Shown: positions 34 to 3,920 of the stretch, piece by piece
Layout of the letters: each line of letters opens with the position of its first letter
How positions within the stretch are numbered: the stretch's first letter is position 1
NCBI GenBank assembly: GCA_001799975.1
Contig: MGUQ01000060.1
Coordinates: forward strand, 1-12,601
DNA length: 12,601 bases
Reading direction: 5' to 3'
Source: Elusimicrobia bacterium RIFCSPLOWO2_01_FULL_54_10
GTDB lineage: Bacteria > Elusimicrobiota > Elusimicrobia > 2-02-FULL-39-32
Translations under genes and position numbers: made by a program
The notes under the pieces: generated by a model
What the model was told of the DNA's origin: nothing
Seen by the model: only the letters and a program-made list of their open reading frames with translations
Database searches by the model: none

Positions 34-735
34 CTACACTGCTGCTATCATATCCCGCGTCGAAAGTGATTTGCTCGACTTTAAATACTCAAATGCCTCC
101 ACCAAAAATCCAGCCGATCCCACTGCGCCGTCATATATTTTGTCTCCAATTTTTGGGGCCACTACTTTGACGATCGTTTTGATCAATGGTCTGGGAGTGT
201 AATATTCTCCGCCGTTTCGTCCAGCATTACCCATGTTCTTGATTTTGGCTTCATAAAGGTGTGAGAGCTCATGTTTTTCCGTTTGGGATCGGAAACGCAT
301 GCCATCTACAATATTTAGGACTTCCCGGAGATTGTGTCCACTCTGTATTTTATTTTTAATTTCGTTGAAGATTTCGCCAATCTTGTATTCGATGGTATCG
401 GGATGCTCAGCTTCGGATTTGAATCTTTTTAGGTAGGGGAAAAGCTTGTGGTCAACGAATTCCTTGAGATCATCACCTCCAAGCGCCACATTGTGGTCCA
501 ATTTGCCCGTGGTGGTTTTTGGAGCCGCCCATGCTTCCCATCTGAACTTTGGATCAATCAGGAATTTGTAGGGTTTACCTGCAAGAGCGGCTTCCGTCTT
601 TTTGTCTTTTTCTAGGTCGTCCAGGTACTTCAAAAAAAGAATCCAAGAGGTCTGCTCCACATAATCCAGCTCGCTAGCCGCGCCGGCATCTTTGTGGAGG
701 ATGTCATCAATGTTCTTGAATGATTGTTCAAACAT
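34..735 (-). pseudogene. hsdM: Type I restriction-modification DNA methylase subunit HsdM, truncated 3' end
   Basis: The 233 residues match the HsdM N-terminal helical domain (residues 1 to about 150, starting MFEQSFKNIDDILHK) and the beginning of the N6-adenine methylase domain. Visible methylase landmarks are GGEYYTPRPLI at about 176-186, a feature of HsdM proteins, and the SAM-binding motif I variant DGAVGSAGFL at about 203-212. HsdM proteins usually have about 480-520 residues. Here similarity stops after STRDM, four residues later there is a TAG, and the catalytic motif IV (NPPF/NPPY) is missing, so this copy should not methylate DNA. No alternative frame in bases 1-33 restores the family sequence. 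The cause may be an insertion or deletion just outside the window. No hsdS or hsdR is seen upstream, where a divergent gene begins. The start is supported by the family-typical N-terminus, although the Shine-Dalgarno sequence is weak. Confidence 0.85.
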
Positions 736-793
736 TACGGGGGCCTAGAACTTCAATTGGCATGGTTTTAGAGGCATTTTTATAGTTTCGACA

Positions 794-821
794 AGTATAC
801 CACTTCCCATCGGGGGTCAAA
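794..821 (-). promoter_or_regulatory. Putative sigma-70-type promoter for hsdM
   Basis: On the minus strand a TATACT -10 box (794-799) is preceded by TTTGAC (816-821, spacer 16) or TTGACC (815-820, spacer 15). The predicted start would give a leader of about 50 nt before the hsdM ATG. This rests on motif matching only. Confidence 0.45.
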
Positions 822-893
822 AAAGGCTATCAAAACCCGGAATCTATACTCATGCCCGCTCTAAAACTACTTACAATTGAGACACTAAGCGCA

Positions 894-921
894 TTGTCAT
901 GACATCGTGGAAAAATATGTT
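894..921 (+). promoter_or_regulatory. Putative promoter for the transglutaminase-like/mini-RHS cluster
   Basis: TTGTCA (894-899), a 16-nt spacer and TATGTT (916-921) form a plausible but weak sigma-70 promoter in the AT-rich gap upstream of the gene at 996. A perfect 10-bp palindrome, TGTCATGACA (895-904), overlaps the -35 box and could be an operator. The rest of the divergent gap (736-995) shows nothing else I can support. Confidence 0.35.
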
Positions 922-995
922 ACATTTTATTTACAATTTATGGGTTATTTTTAGGCGCGTATAAGCTAAAATTAAAAGTCCAATATTAAAATATT

Positions 996-2030
996 ATGAA
1001 CCCATTAGTTCAAATGAGAGCCAGGTTATATTCAGTCCATCTTTCAGCGCTAACATTACCGAAGAAGTCGTTTTTAATTTCCTTACTTCTTTTGGTATCG
1101 GTTATTGCTATCTCCCAGTCTTATGAAAATAATTTCCAAAAGAAAGACAATTATTTTTTACATGGGGTTAAATCGAAAGTCCTTTTGGAATCCATTCTGG
1201 CAATCCCGGAAAATGAAATTGACATATCAAAAATTGCATATATCCTTGCTAAAGATGCTGACCCATCATTAGACCTTAATGTCCTATACTATGATTTTGA
1301 AAACTTGATTAATGAAATAAAGGAATTTACGGGTCCGAACGATGATCCCGAGCATCGCGTTCGCGCATTGAACACCTATCTCTATAAAAAGATGGGGATT
1401 GGTTATGACAAAGATGACTACCAGGGGAAAAAACTTGAAAACAGATACATTCACACAGTTCTTGTTAAGAGAACAGGTGCATGTTTAAATTTGGCAATTT
1501 TTTATATTGCTGTCGCTCAAAAACTGGGATATCCTGTTTATGCCGTGGCCGCTCCCCAACATTTGTTTTGCAGATATGTTGACCCCTCATTCTTGCGCCA
1601 AAATATTGAGCCCACCGGTAGCGGAGCTTTTTCCTCAGATGAGGACTATATTTTGGACATGGAGATTAAACGAAATGCCGTTGAAAACGGCAGTTATTTG
1701 AGAACGCTTAACAACAAGGAATTGGTGGCCGAAATGGTGGCAGATCATGCATCATTTTATTATGGTCAGATTATAAAAAACTATAACATTGCCACCATCA
1801 TTCTCCACAAGGCCGTGCTTTTAAGCCCTAAAACTCCTGAAAATTGGAGTCTTCTTGGACAGCTTTACATTAAACGATCTCGTCATGAATTCGAGCCGTT
1901 AATCAAGGAATCAGATTATGCTCGAGGAATGCACATGATTCAGAAGTCAAAAGAGATGGGTATTAATCCGCCTTTAGCGGACGAATATTGGAAAAAACCA
2001 TTGCCAAGCAAGTTTAGGCCCAGAAGTTAA
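996..2030 (+). CDS. Membrane-anchored SirB1/Transglut_core2-like protein with TPR-like C-terminus
   Basis: 344 residues. A hydrophobic segment at about 24-41 is a signal anchor or uncleaved signal peptide, so the rest is probably periplasmic. Residues about 115-210 resemble the SirB1 N-terminal/Transglut_core2 fold, a papain-like transglutaminase/protease relative: KRTGACLNLAIFYIAVAQKLG carries the candidate catalytic Cys163, APQHLFCRY the His189, and NIEPT the acidic Glu205. Residues about 255-320 (ATIILHKAVLLSPKTPENWSL and following) look like one or two TPR helical pairs, an arrangement common in SirB1-type proteins. The substrate is unknown. There is no clear Shine-Dalgarno sequence; Met7 (1014) is an alternative start. 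The codons are AT-rich compared with the genes right of 3900. The gene lies 21 nt upstream of the mini-RHS gene and is probably cotranscribed with it, so a role in processing or handling that protein is possible but inferred only from position. Confidence 0.75.
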   Translation: MNPLVQMRARLYSVHLSALTLPKKSFLISLLLLVSVIAISQSYENNFQKKDNYFLHGVKSKVLLESILAIPENEIDISKIAYILAKDADPSLDLNVLYYDFENLINEIKEFTGPNDDPEHRVRALNTYLYKKMGIGYDKDDYQGKKLENRYIHTVLVKRTGACLNLAIFYIAVAQKLGYPVYAVAAPQHLFCRYVDPSFLRQNIEPTGSGAFSSDEDYILDMEIKRNAVENGSYLRTLNNKELVAEMVADHASFYYGQIIKNYNIATIILHKAVLLSPKTPENWSLLGQLYIKRSRHEFEPLIKESDYARGMHMIQKSKEMGINPPLADEYWKKPLPSKFRPRS

Positions 2031-2051
2031 ATAATGTCACAATAGGAATGT

Positions 2052-2645
2052 ATGGTTAAATTAATGAGATTGGTTTTACTGGTTACTGCAATATTGATTT
2101 TTAATTCGGCTGTTTGGGCAAGAATATATGACCCCGGGAATGGAAGATTCTTGCAGGAGGATCCAATTGGATTTGAAGGAGGGGATGTTAATCTTTTTGC
2201 ATACACCGAAAACAACCCCGTTAACTATACGGATCCTTGGGGCCTGTACTCTGAAAATCCATTTGCATTTTTCTATGATCTTGATAATTTTGCGATTGGC
2301 ACCTCGAACTTTAGTGCAGGTTATGGAGATGCATTAACATCGCTTTTTGGTTTCTTTGATACCAGTCTGACGGAACAAACCAGAGAGGAACTTGGAATAA
2401 ATTGGAATGCGGATGAGTGTGGCGGGTTTTTTAGGGCAGGAAGAATTGGGGCTTATTCTTGGGCGGCCATAACTTCTGGGGCGGTTGGCGCCCGTCTTGT
2501 CGGCTGGCAAACAAGGGTTGGGCTTCATGGGCCACATCATCAATTTGGAAGATTCGGTCGGCTGTCACATCTGCAACTAAACTACTGGAAAAATGGAATA
2601 TCGAAAAGCGGGAGGGCCATTCGATTCCCTTTGCCGTGGAGGTAG
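2052..2645 (+). CDS. Miniature secreted RHS-core protein with putative C-terminal toxin domain
   Basis: 197 residues in three parts. Residues 1-23 are a Sec signal peptide (basic KLMR, hydrophobic core, VWA cleavage site). Residues 24-65 are the very end of an RHS-repeat-associated core: RIYDPGNGRFLQEDPIGF, then NLFAYTENNPVNYTDP and WGL. This includes the PxxxxDPxGL motif (PVNYTDPWGL, 56-65) that marks autocleavage in full-length RHS proteins. Residues 66-197 are a different C-terminal domain rich in Gly, His and aromatic residues. Its end (GLHGPHHQFG at 157-166, LSHLQLNYWKNG, SGRAIRFPLPW) looks like a conserved RHS-tip toxin module with candidate catalytic His159, His162, His163 and His173; I do not know its activity. 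Normal RHS proteins exceed 1000 residues, and the YD-repeat shell is absent here. AGGA at 2044-2047 serves the start. The next gene follows after 3 nt and is the likely immunity gene. It could also be a decayed RHS end that happens to follow a signal peptide. Confidence 0.75.
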   Translation: MVKLMRLVLLVTAILIFNSAVWARIYDPGNGRFLQEDPIGFEGGDVNLFAYTENNPVNYTDPWGLYSENPFAFFYDLDNFAIGTSNFSAGYGDALTSLFGFFDTSLTEQTREELGINWNADECGGFFRAGRIGAYSWAAITSGAVGARLVGWQTRVGLHGPHHQFGRFGRLSHLQLNYWKNGISKSGRAIRFPLPWR

Positions 2646-2648
2646 CGC

Positions 2649-3077
2649 ATGCCCTTAAATATTGTAGCTGACCAATCTAATAACTTGCCGTCCATTACGG
2701 ATGCTATACATGACTGTTGGTTTGACAAAGAGGATATCGTTTTCCATAAGGACTCCTCTATTTTGGAAATAAAATTTGATCGGGAAGTCCCGGAGAATCG
2801 AAAAATTTTAAAGAACTTCTTGTTGTTGAAGGAAGTTCAAATCCCCGTGATTGAATGCATTTTAAGGATTTATCATATAAAAACCTGTCAAATCACCGAC
2901 ACAGAAAAGGTCGGACGATATGATTTTAATAAGCTGGAATACGATCCTAACAGGAGTCAGATTTGCGTGCGCACAGGGGTCCCAATTGACATTAAAGTAA
3001 CGGTTAATGGACTTAGGATAGCAGTTGAAGAAACAGGTCGGAAATTAGAAGACAAAGTGACTTGGGTATTTTTTTAA
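2649..3077 (+). CDS. Hypothetical protein, probable immunity partner of the mini-RHS protein
   Basis: 142 residues with no signal peptide or membrane segment, so cytoplasmic. It has alternating strands and helices, an acidic N-terminal half (DAIHDCWFDKEDIVFHKDSS) and a C-terminal part ending in VTWVFF. I do not recognise a named family. It starts 3 nt after the mini-RHS stop, and a strong GGAGGT (2638-2643) 5 nt before its ATG overlaps that stop codon, so translation of the two genes is coupled. Position, size, cytoplasmic character and the lack of a signal peptide fit a cognate immunity protein for an RHS-tip toxin. The function is inferred from context only. Confidence 0.65.
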   Translation: MPLNIVADQSNNLPSITDAIHDCWFDKEDIVFHKDSSILEIKFDREVPENRKILKNFLLLKEVQIPVIECILRIYHIKTCQITDTEKVGRYDFNKLEYDPNRSQICVRTGVPIDIKVTVNGLRIAVEETGRKLEDKVTWVFF

Positions 3078-3159
3078 TCATTAACAAATAAATAAAATCA
3101 GCTCATCCGTAATCTGCAAGGTAAGTGAAGTGATATGCAAAAGGTTTACTGTTTTGCGC

Positions 3160-3400
3160 GCGCGAGACGACAAGACTTTTGACTCCTAAGAAGGAATCCT
3201 TTTTGCCGTACGGCGAGACCCCAGGGGGCTGGGCGAGACGAAAGGGTGAGGCCGCCGAGAGGCGGCCGGAACCCAAAGGAGGTGATGAGCATGGGGGACG
3301 CTGTTGAACTCCAGCTCTCACAGGGCACGGGAGAGCGCGGGGCAACCTGAGCGAGGTGCGCCCGAGCGCCGCGCCGCGAAGCGAGTCCAGAAATCACGCG
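3160..3400 (+). ncRNA. Structured noncoding RNA candidate, possibly HEARO/IscB omega-RNA-like
   Basis: No protein gene is credible here, but consecutive stems are visible on the plus strand: CCCAG-GGGG-CTGGG (3220-3233), and GGCCGCC-GAGA-GGCGGCC (3250-3267) with a GNRA tetraloop, extended by GGGT/ACCC (3244-3247/3271-3274) across a GA/GGA internal loop that can form tandem sheared G.A pairs. A further helix pairs GTGA and GAGC (3282-3290, one bulged base) with GCTC and TCAC (3314-3321), and ACCT-GAGCG-AGGT forms a hairpin near 3345-3357. GCGAGAC occurs three times (3162, 3213, 3233). The GNRA loop exists only on this strand. From memory, the arrangement and the stretch around 3270-3335 resemble the omega-RNA of IscB (HEARO) elements. 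I could not verify this, and no IscB gene adjoins. Edges are approximate. Confidence 0.45.
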
Positions 3401-3765
3401 GAGCGTGTGCGTGCGAGAGGGAGCGGCGAGCGAACGAAGTTCACGAAGCGGAACGGCGCGGACGATGAAGGACGGCAACGATGAAGATGCGCGATGCGAC
3501 TCACCGAACGAACTGACCAACCAAAACTTTAGACGAGATCAATCACGAACATACGATACTCAACACAAAGGCCAAAGGGTTTATGCCATGGCGGCAACAA
3601 TCTCGACGACAGATTGGCTCACAGTTATATAAATCCAACTTACGACGAGAGTTTGCAAAGCGAGGAAGGAATGTCTAAAATTCCTATGGATGAATGTCAG
3701 GGTGGGTTCGAGGCTCGCGGCCTTATGTTTTCAAGGAATGCCGCTCGCCCCGGGGCGCTCACGAA
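3401..3765 (+). other. Gene-free continuation of the structured region
   Basis: No ORF here looks like a protein: those of 60-75 codons have Arg/Ser-rich, low-complexity translations and no good ribosome sites. Visible structure: AGGAAT-7 nt-ATTCCT hairpin (3667-3685), a perfect 12-bp palindrome CGCCCCGGGGCG (3746-3757), and recurring GCGAGCG/GCGAAGCG words around 3375-3450. It may be the 3' part of one long RNA or the remains of a mobile element body. I see no IscB, TnpA or other transposase remnant. Confidence 0.4.
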
Positions 3766-3849
3766 CTCGCGCCCGCGCGTAGCTCGGCGCAAGTCCCCAT
3801 CGTGACATTTAGTCACGATGGCTTGCGCCACGCGCCCATCACCCGCGAG
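3766..3849 (+). repeat. Long interrupted inverted repeat (about 30 bp of stem)
   Basis: Nested arms pair in order: CTCGCG (3766-3771) with CGCGAG (3844-3849), GCGCGT (3775-3780) with ACGCGC (3830-3835), GGCGCAAG (3786-3793) with CTTGCGCC (3822-3829), and CCATCGTGAC (3797-3806) with GTCACGATGG (3812-3821) around an ATTTA loop. The three innermost arms are contiguous on the right side, with bulges only on the left. This could be a hairpin of a structured RNA or the subterminal hairpin of an IS200/IS605-type element end. All four arm pairs are exact. Confidence 0.7.
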
Positions 3850-3861
3850 CTCTTTATGTGG

Positions 3862-3888
3862 AAGATTCGAACCAAGTTCGAATCTTTT
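3862..3888 (+). terminator. Terminator-like hairpin closing the noncoding region
   Basis: A perfect 11-bp stem, AAGATTCGAAC with GTTCGAATCTT (3862-3872/3876-3886), has a CAA loop and is followed by two more T residues. The short T-tract makes it a modest intrinsic terminator. It lies about 30 nt before the start of the Crp/Fnr gene and would separate that gene from upstream transcription. The GTTCGAATC word resembles a tRNA T-arm, but no tRNA surrounds it. Confidence 0.4.
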
Positions 3889-3920
3889 CCCAAGAGTCGC
3901 TAAAATTTCTTTTTAAAATT

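Follow-up and report, generated by a model that had tools for sequence, protein, structure and literature searches.

Genes and features at the locus

Analysis of the window, which is the whole stretch of 12,601 nucleotides studied here and corresponds to contig C60 of the Elusimicrobia bacterium RIFCSPLOWO2_01_FULL_54_10 genome (G000, 79% complete), revealed a block devoid of genes between about positions 3157 and 3837. Upstream of the stretch 3160-3400, which a preliminary description had singled out, a C-terminal fragment of an Rhs core (TIGR03696) is followed by a frame of 142 amino acids (window 2052-3077) for which neither Pfam nor NCBIfam gave a match; the pair resembles a polymorphic-toxin tip in displaced form next to a candidate immunity gene, which may be their role. 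The nearest genes to the right code for a Crp-type regulator and a hemerythrin, and no HNH or RuvC gene was found among the window frames examined.

No Rfam 15 family matched the whole window at gathering thresholds (cmscan). Between 3000 and 3950 a terminator scan remained at chance level (1 found versus 1.4 expected), and a promoter scan indicated two overlapping promoter-like sites at 3652-3681 (0.5 expected). The features of the block are given in Table 1.

Table 1. Features of the gene-less block and of the three-hairpin unit at its right end (window coordinates).
Positions	Strand	Feature	Remarks
3157-3837	.	Gene-less block	Partly common to G000:C23, G002:C99 and G005:C236 (blastn, MAFFT)
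3157-3216	+	Left part with a match in G002	74% over 61 columns, E 2e-4 versus that locus
3244-3274	+	GAGA-capped 7-bp stem and G.A internal loop
3275-3293	+	AAAGGAGGTGATGAGCATG, Shine-Dalgarno-like motif and ATG
3282-3321	+	Bulged 8-bp helix and inner stem
3585-3603	+	GCCATGGCGGCAACAATCT	C23 identical, G005 one change
3604-3700	.	About 97 bases missing from C23 and G005
3713-3720	.	Left arm GCTCGCGG of inverted repeat around the unit	4 bases common with left arm of H1
3717-3744	.	H1: GCGGC / GCCGC, 18-base loop	By eye; weak in C23
3753-3774	.	H2: GGGCGC-TCACGAACTC-GCGCCC
3775-3835	.	H3: long hairpin, two one-sided bulges, outer stem GCGCGT/ACGCGC	Covaries
3843-3850	.	Right arm CCGCGAGC of inverted repeat around the unit

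Hairpins, repeats and coding potential of the stretch 3160-3400

The GNRA-capped stem reported previously was recovered as GGCCGCC-GAGA-GGCGGCC at 3250-3267, prolonged by GGGT/ACCC across a GA/GGA internal loop. The region 3228-3290 folds with a z-score of -3.77 and none of 200 shuffled sequences was equally stable, while its counterpart in G005 is unremarkable (z -1.42, 16/200 shuffles). Inspection by eye indicated that G005 has a 7-bp stem with the same loop and other base pairs and that G002 has no such stem. The bulged 8-bp helix GUGA-U-GAGC / GCUC-UCAC is present as described, at 3282-3321, but its stability lies within chance (z -1.55, 18/200 shuffles); among three relatives, the best fold of G005 (2696-2755) shows the outer helix and those of the other two do not. 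The GCGAGAC repeats start at 3162, 3213 and 3233 and occur nowhere else in the window on either strand, and none was seen by eye at the matching places of the relatives.

An unusual degree of structure over the entire stretch was not confirmed: 3140-3560 folds with a z-score of -1.27, and 13 of 100 shuffled sequences were equally stable. The strongest fold lies outside these coordinates, at 3740-3846 (z -4.80, 0/200 shuffles). As previously suggested, no plausible protein gene was found: the check took in minus-strand frames of at least 80 amino acids, and the two located in the stretch (3103-3345 and 3146-3520) had no Pfam family at E ≤ 1, on which ground a decayed protein gene was rejected. 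The Shine-Dalgarno-like motif and ATG at 3275-3293 belong to a pattern, GGTGATG..CATG, which four sequences have in common.

Searches for HEARO RNA and IscB

The preliminary description had interpreted the stretch as an orphan HEARO or omega RNA. Model RF02033 did not match the window at its gathering score, nor the region 3050-3920 at E ≤ 10, where cmscan returned two unrelated sub-threshold matches, neither of them HEARO, the better one being DUF3800-X (17.1 bits versus a cut-off of 38.2, E 1.9). Nor did RF02033 match at E ≤ 1 in nine genomes of the family; in the control search 1 of 14 genomes matched, below the cut-off. The N-terminal domain of IscB (PF14239) was found in none of the nine family genomes, the 79% complete genome of the window included, and this search is a weak one because the control genomes gave no match either. 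RF02033 is reported to match 65% of HEARO nuclease 5' UTRs (PMC9755519), and its failure to match therefore leaves room for a very divergent HEARO form.

As an alternative, a new large RNA class had been put forward. A structured element without genes and outside Rfam is partly supported: sequences related to 3160-3400 exist in two other genomes, and the part that covaries lies to the right of these coordinates and resembles, in its behaviour, a dispersed repeat more than a single-copy RNA gene.

Relatives of the block and of its 5' core

A second copy of the right part of the block is located in the same genome at the edge of contig C23, which begins inside the element and holds its middle and right part. 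At the start of this contig (L009, G000:C23, 1-144) there is a 72-bp tandem duplication matching window 3354-3425. Genome G002, of the same genus, carries the 5' part of the block, and the searches for the 3' unit gave no match in it. In genome G005, of the same family, a diverged copy at about C236:2640-3312 covers nearly the full length, and a lone 5' core lies at C236:76-150. Genes for a LexA-like protein, TcmP (TIGR04474) and DUF5131 lie between the two 5' core copies of that contig (L034, G005:C236:1-6000, positions 76-3312).

Three covariance models were used, R1 (3700-3846), R2 (the 5' core) and R3 (the three-hairpin unit); all were built from sequences that they then find, and the E-values of such home-made models are rough. 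Strong matches to R2 (E < 1e-10) were confined to G000, G002 and G005 among 231 genomes; at E ≤ 0.1 the model matched 40 of the 231, and the 37 whose best E was 5e-4 or worse were taken as chance.

A phage or plasmid origin was rejected, the block and a short unit having given only short matches with E from 0.1 to 1. Five exact motif scans of viral contigs returned 2, 0, 1, 0 and 3 stretches, respectively: similarity was confined to the motif in the scan giving two, the single stretch scored 14.5 bits with R2, and the three had a best E of 0.066 with R3. A motif scan of genome contigs returned eight stretches, one of which was the G005 contig; the other seven, whose match to the window extends over no more than 40 bases (E 1e-5), were regarded as chance. 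A different palindromic repeat occurring in the window's family (GAGCTTCAGCGAGGAAGTGCCGC...) was observed at G002:C3, C22, C42 and C99, at G007:C18:555979-556037, apparently within a reading frame, and at G008:C16:344263-344288.

Structure and covariation of the three-hairpin unit

The right end of the block, 3717-3835, consists of three hairpins, H1, H2 and H3. This unit is shorter than 200 bp, non-coding and provided with internal inverted repeats; the longer block 3157-3837 exceeds 200 bp. Alignment of ten copies revealed that both sides change in 18 of the 30 base pairs and that 95.0% of the cells are paired, versus 72.4% after shuffling. The covariation score of these copies was 0.563 (0.146±0.024 when shuffled) and was abolished when partners were slid (0.04-0.10). 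Over 82 distinct rows, in an alignment fitted to R3, the score was 0.320 versus 0.083±0.005. H2 taken alone covaries too (14 rows, copies at tRNA-Pro and tmk included), and its loop, TCAC-N(1-3)-CTC, is kept in 81 of 83 units. Rfam 15 gave no match other than tRNAs in six related loci.

Distribution of the unit in the phylum

Model R1 matched eight of 231 genomes of the class at E ≤ 0.1, and in six the match reached E < 1e-4; the loci that were read lie at tRNA genes and have the three-hairpin unit in common. Model R3 matched at least 8 of 40 chosen genomes and, across the phylum, at least 75 places in at least 27 of 340 genomes at E ≤ 0.01, its matches extending beyond the class of the window. 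These counts are lower bounds because at most 12 candidates per genome were scored in the search of 340 genomes and at most 109 in that of 40; one genome, G022, matches in the smaller search and not in the larger. The richest genome, G296, has at least ten copies of the unit, G289 and G290 have at least seven each, G326 at least six, and the genome of the window at least two. A 20-mer of H2 allowing up to three mismatches occurred in at least 108 of the 340 genomes, but reversed-pattern controls occurred about as often and no count was based on it.

Genomic context of the units

Flanks and context were determined for 83 matches in 72 loci, the units of one locus not being independent. The controls were 62 of 71 listed loci, namely chance pattern matches from the same phylum longer than 2,500 bases, shorter ones having been dropped. 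A tRNA gene identified by ARAGORN lies within 300 bp of 41 of the 83 units, versus 2 of the 62 control loci, and the remaining 42 units have none within that distance. On the strand of R3, 34 of the 41 tRNA-near units are antisense and seven are sense to the tRNA, so that it is mostly the reverse strand that reads with the tRNA. Flanking direct repeats with a score of at least 14 were found at 34 of 83 units and at 1 of 62 controls, and 49 units have none. The length spanned by these repeats is 14-90 bases, with a median of 33, tandem copies of the unit being included in some; in 24 of the 34 cases, eight bases or more are shared with an intact tRNA gene.

Individual loci, in which nested tRNA halves and promoters were identified by eye, showed how the units are placed. 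Several units accompany a tRNA-Pro gene with tRNA halves on both sides (L148), while pieces of tRNA-Asp split near the T-loop surround the units in L112, where an intact tRNA-Asp is present too. In L178 a truncated tRNA-Ala holds the unit in the region of the variable loop, and an intact tRNA-Ala follows 115 bp on. Three tandem sets, each composed of a promoter-like TTGAAA..TATAAT, a tRNA-Ala 5' half and a unit, precede an intact tRNA-Ala in L201 (G290:C25, 960-1590). Away from tRNA genes, a unit of L146 comes after a 42-base duplicate of the beginning of a frame taken by eye for thymidylate kinase (tmk), and further units lie within REP-like palindromes (by eye).

Enclosing inverted repeats at the 5% level were present at 16 of 75 units (of the 83, seven were left out and one was short-flanked) versus 13 of 221 random sites. 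The copy in the window is among the best, with its 8-bp arms (Table 1); no enclosing inverted repeat was found around the units of C23 and G005, and neither a tRNA nor a direct repeat lies alongside the copies of the window and C23. The flanks of the units pair better with each other than swapped flanks do (n = 76, p 0.0012; six of the 83 left out, one short-flanked).

Two further arrangements were recorded. In L176 (G292:C1, 1430-1630) the D-arm of tRNA-Asn occurs, by eye, as an inverted copy just before a D-arm piece that bears a unit, which suggests template switching. In L157 (G022:C1:185199-188266, 1100-1840) tandem repeats of about 65 nt lie on both sides of a tRNA-Gln; each combines a copy of the end of the tRNA leader with a small variable hairpin, and they may represent a second, smaller family of inserts.

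Interpretation of the unit and alternatives

The unit keeps a covarying structure, is dispersed, and recurs near tRNA genes and between direct repeats. We consider that 3717-3835 is probably (roughly 0.6) a copy of a small, non-autonomous, palindromic mobile repeat which enters hairpin-forming targets with a preference for tRNA genes and is found throughout the Elusimicrobiota. Such a unit (about 65-150 bp, non-coding and multi-hairpin) would be copied or moved in trans by a putative enzyme, and would enter DNA able to form hairpins, such as the loops of tRNA genes, a gene start or REP-like palindromes. The intact target gene would remain alongside and the target stretch would often be duplicated. 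In the family of the window the unit is the right end of the longer block 3157-3837. Several observations speak against this interpretation: 42 of 83 units have no tRNA gene within 300 bp and 49 no direct repeat, the copies of the window and C23 have neither, C23 and G005 lack the enclosing inverted repeat, that of the window shares four bases with H1, and G002 has the 5' part without a match to the unit. The interpretation covers the unit and not the 5' block 3157-3700, to which the flagged stretch belongs; the GAGA hairpin lies on the plus strand and the mostly tRNA-sense orientation of the units is the minus strand in the window, and therefore the 5' block may have nothing to do with the unit beside it.

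The main rival, which we regard as rather less probable, is a selected small RNA, fused with tRNA 5' halves and expressed from duplicated tRNA promoters, which spreads through recombination and tandem duplication at tRNA loci and not by transposition. The strength of the covariation speaks for it, as do the prevailing antisense orientation on the R3 strand, the promoter-like sequence and tRNA-Ala 5' half before each tandem unit of L201 and the better pairing of own flanks, but some copies lie away from tRNA genes, within REP-like palindromes and, once, at what appears to be the start of a protein gene, and about half of the units have no tRNA nearby.

Improbable, in our judgement, is a single large structured RNA of about 680 nt covering 3157-3837, of a new class limited to the window's family. 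The 5' block and the unit do occur together in the window and in G005, the middle and right part are joined in C23, and the GAGA loop is kept between window and G005 while the pairs of its stem change. Against this reading, 3140-3560 folds no better than its shuffles, G002 and G005:C236:76-150 have the 5' core but not the unit, the orientations of the GAGA loop and of the tRNA-sense unit suggest opposite strands, and the sequences are too few for a covariation test.

It is also conceivable, though with a slightly smaller chance, that the element is mobile at the level of RNA, a structured RNA that inserts itself into loops of tRNAs or other hairpin transcripts and is copied back into the genome together with the tRNA promoter and 5' half, as a bacterial counterpart of SINEs; this would account for the length of the duplications, the nesting of tRNA halves and the predominance of the tRNA-sense orientation. 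A reading of the conserved core 3275-3346 as the beginning of a short frame or of a leader peptide appears very unlikely: the Shine-Dalgarno-like motif and ATG recur in four sequences, but not far past its start a one-base shift sets the window frame apart from those of G002 and G005, and it stops after 19 codons (both by eye); the peptides differ. An orphan HEARO or omega RNA at 3160-3400 has next to no probability, the succession of hairpins without a gene being set against the failure of RF02033 on window, locus and family genomes and the lack of an HNH or RuvC gene among the frames examined. Integron attC sites, group II introns, CRISPR and retron-like layouts were also considered and dropped, the model search being that of Rfam.

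Significance and comparison with known repeat families

No description of the unit was found in searches of open-licence papers. It represents a repeat of conserved structure that recurs phylum-wide at tRNA genes, next to duplicated tRNA 5' halves and promoter-like sequence. If mobile, it would be a tractable system for asking how non-autonomous hairpin elements select structured targets and spare an essential gene; if transcribed, it would constitute a new class of tRNA-fused RNA. Calls of orphan HEARO elements, for their part, need relatives before they are believed.

HEARO/omega RNA (RF02033; PMC9755519) is, like the element of the window, structured, gene-adjacent and multi-hairpin, but the window element has no match to the model and no nuclease gene was found with it. 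The YPAL/RU-2 repeats of Yersinia have internal inverted repeats and variable target duplications, and their targets either span dyad symmetry or lie next to it (PMC2229807). The unit is likewise small, non-coding, dispersed, not A+T-rich and furnished with internal inverted repeats; the direct repeats at 34 of 83 units, the window copy not among them, may be comparable duplications, and its targets may have dyad symmetry too (enclosing inverted repeats at 16 of 75 units, that of the window included, those of C23 and G005 not). It differs from YPAL/RU-2 in that many copies lie at tRNA genes, in direct repeats of 14-90 bases, in its phylum-wide occurrence and in an H2 loop that is kept while the stems covary. 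Rickettsia palindromic elements (RPE) are reported to be hairpin repeats of 100-150 bp inside genes, including those of tmRNA and RNase P RNA (PMC2229807, PMC3767692). The unit, not classed as a member of either YPAL/RU-2 or RPE, is like RPE a hairpin repeat inside genes, RNA genes included, but here the genes concerned are tRNA genes and an intact copy of the gene is kept alongside.
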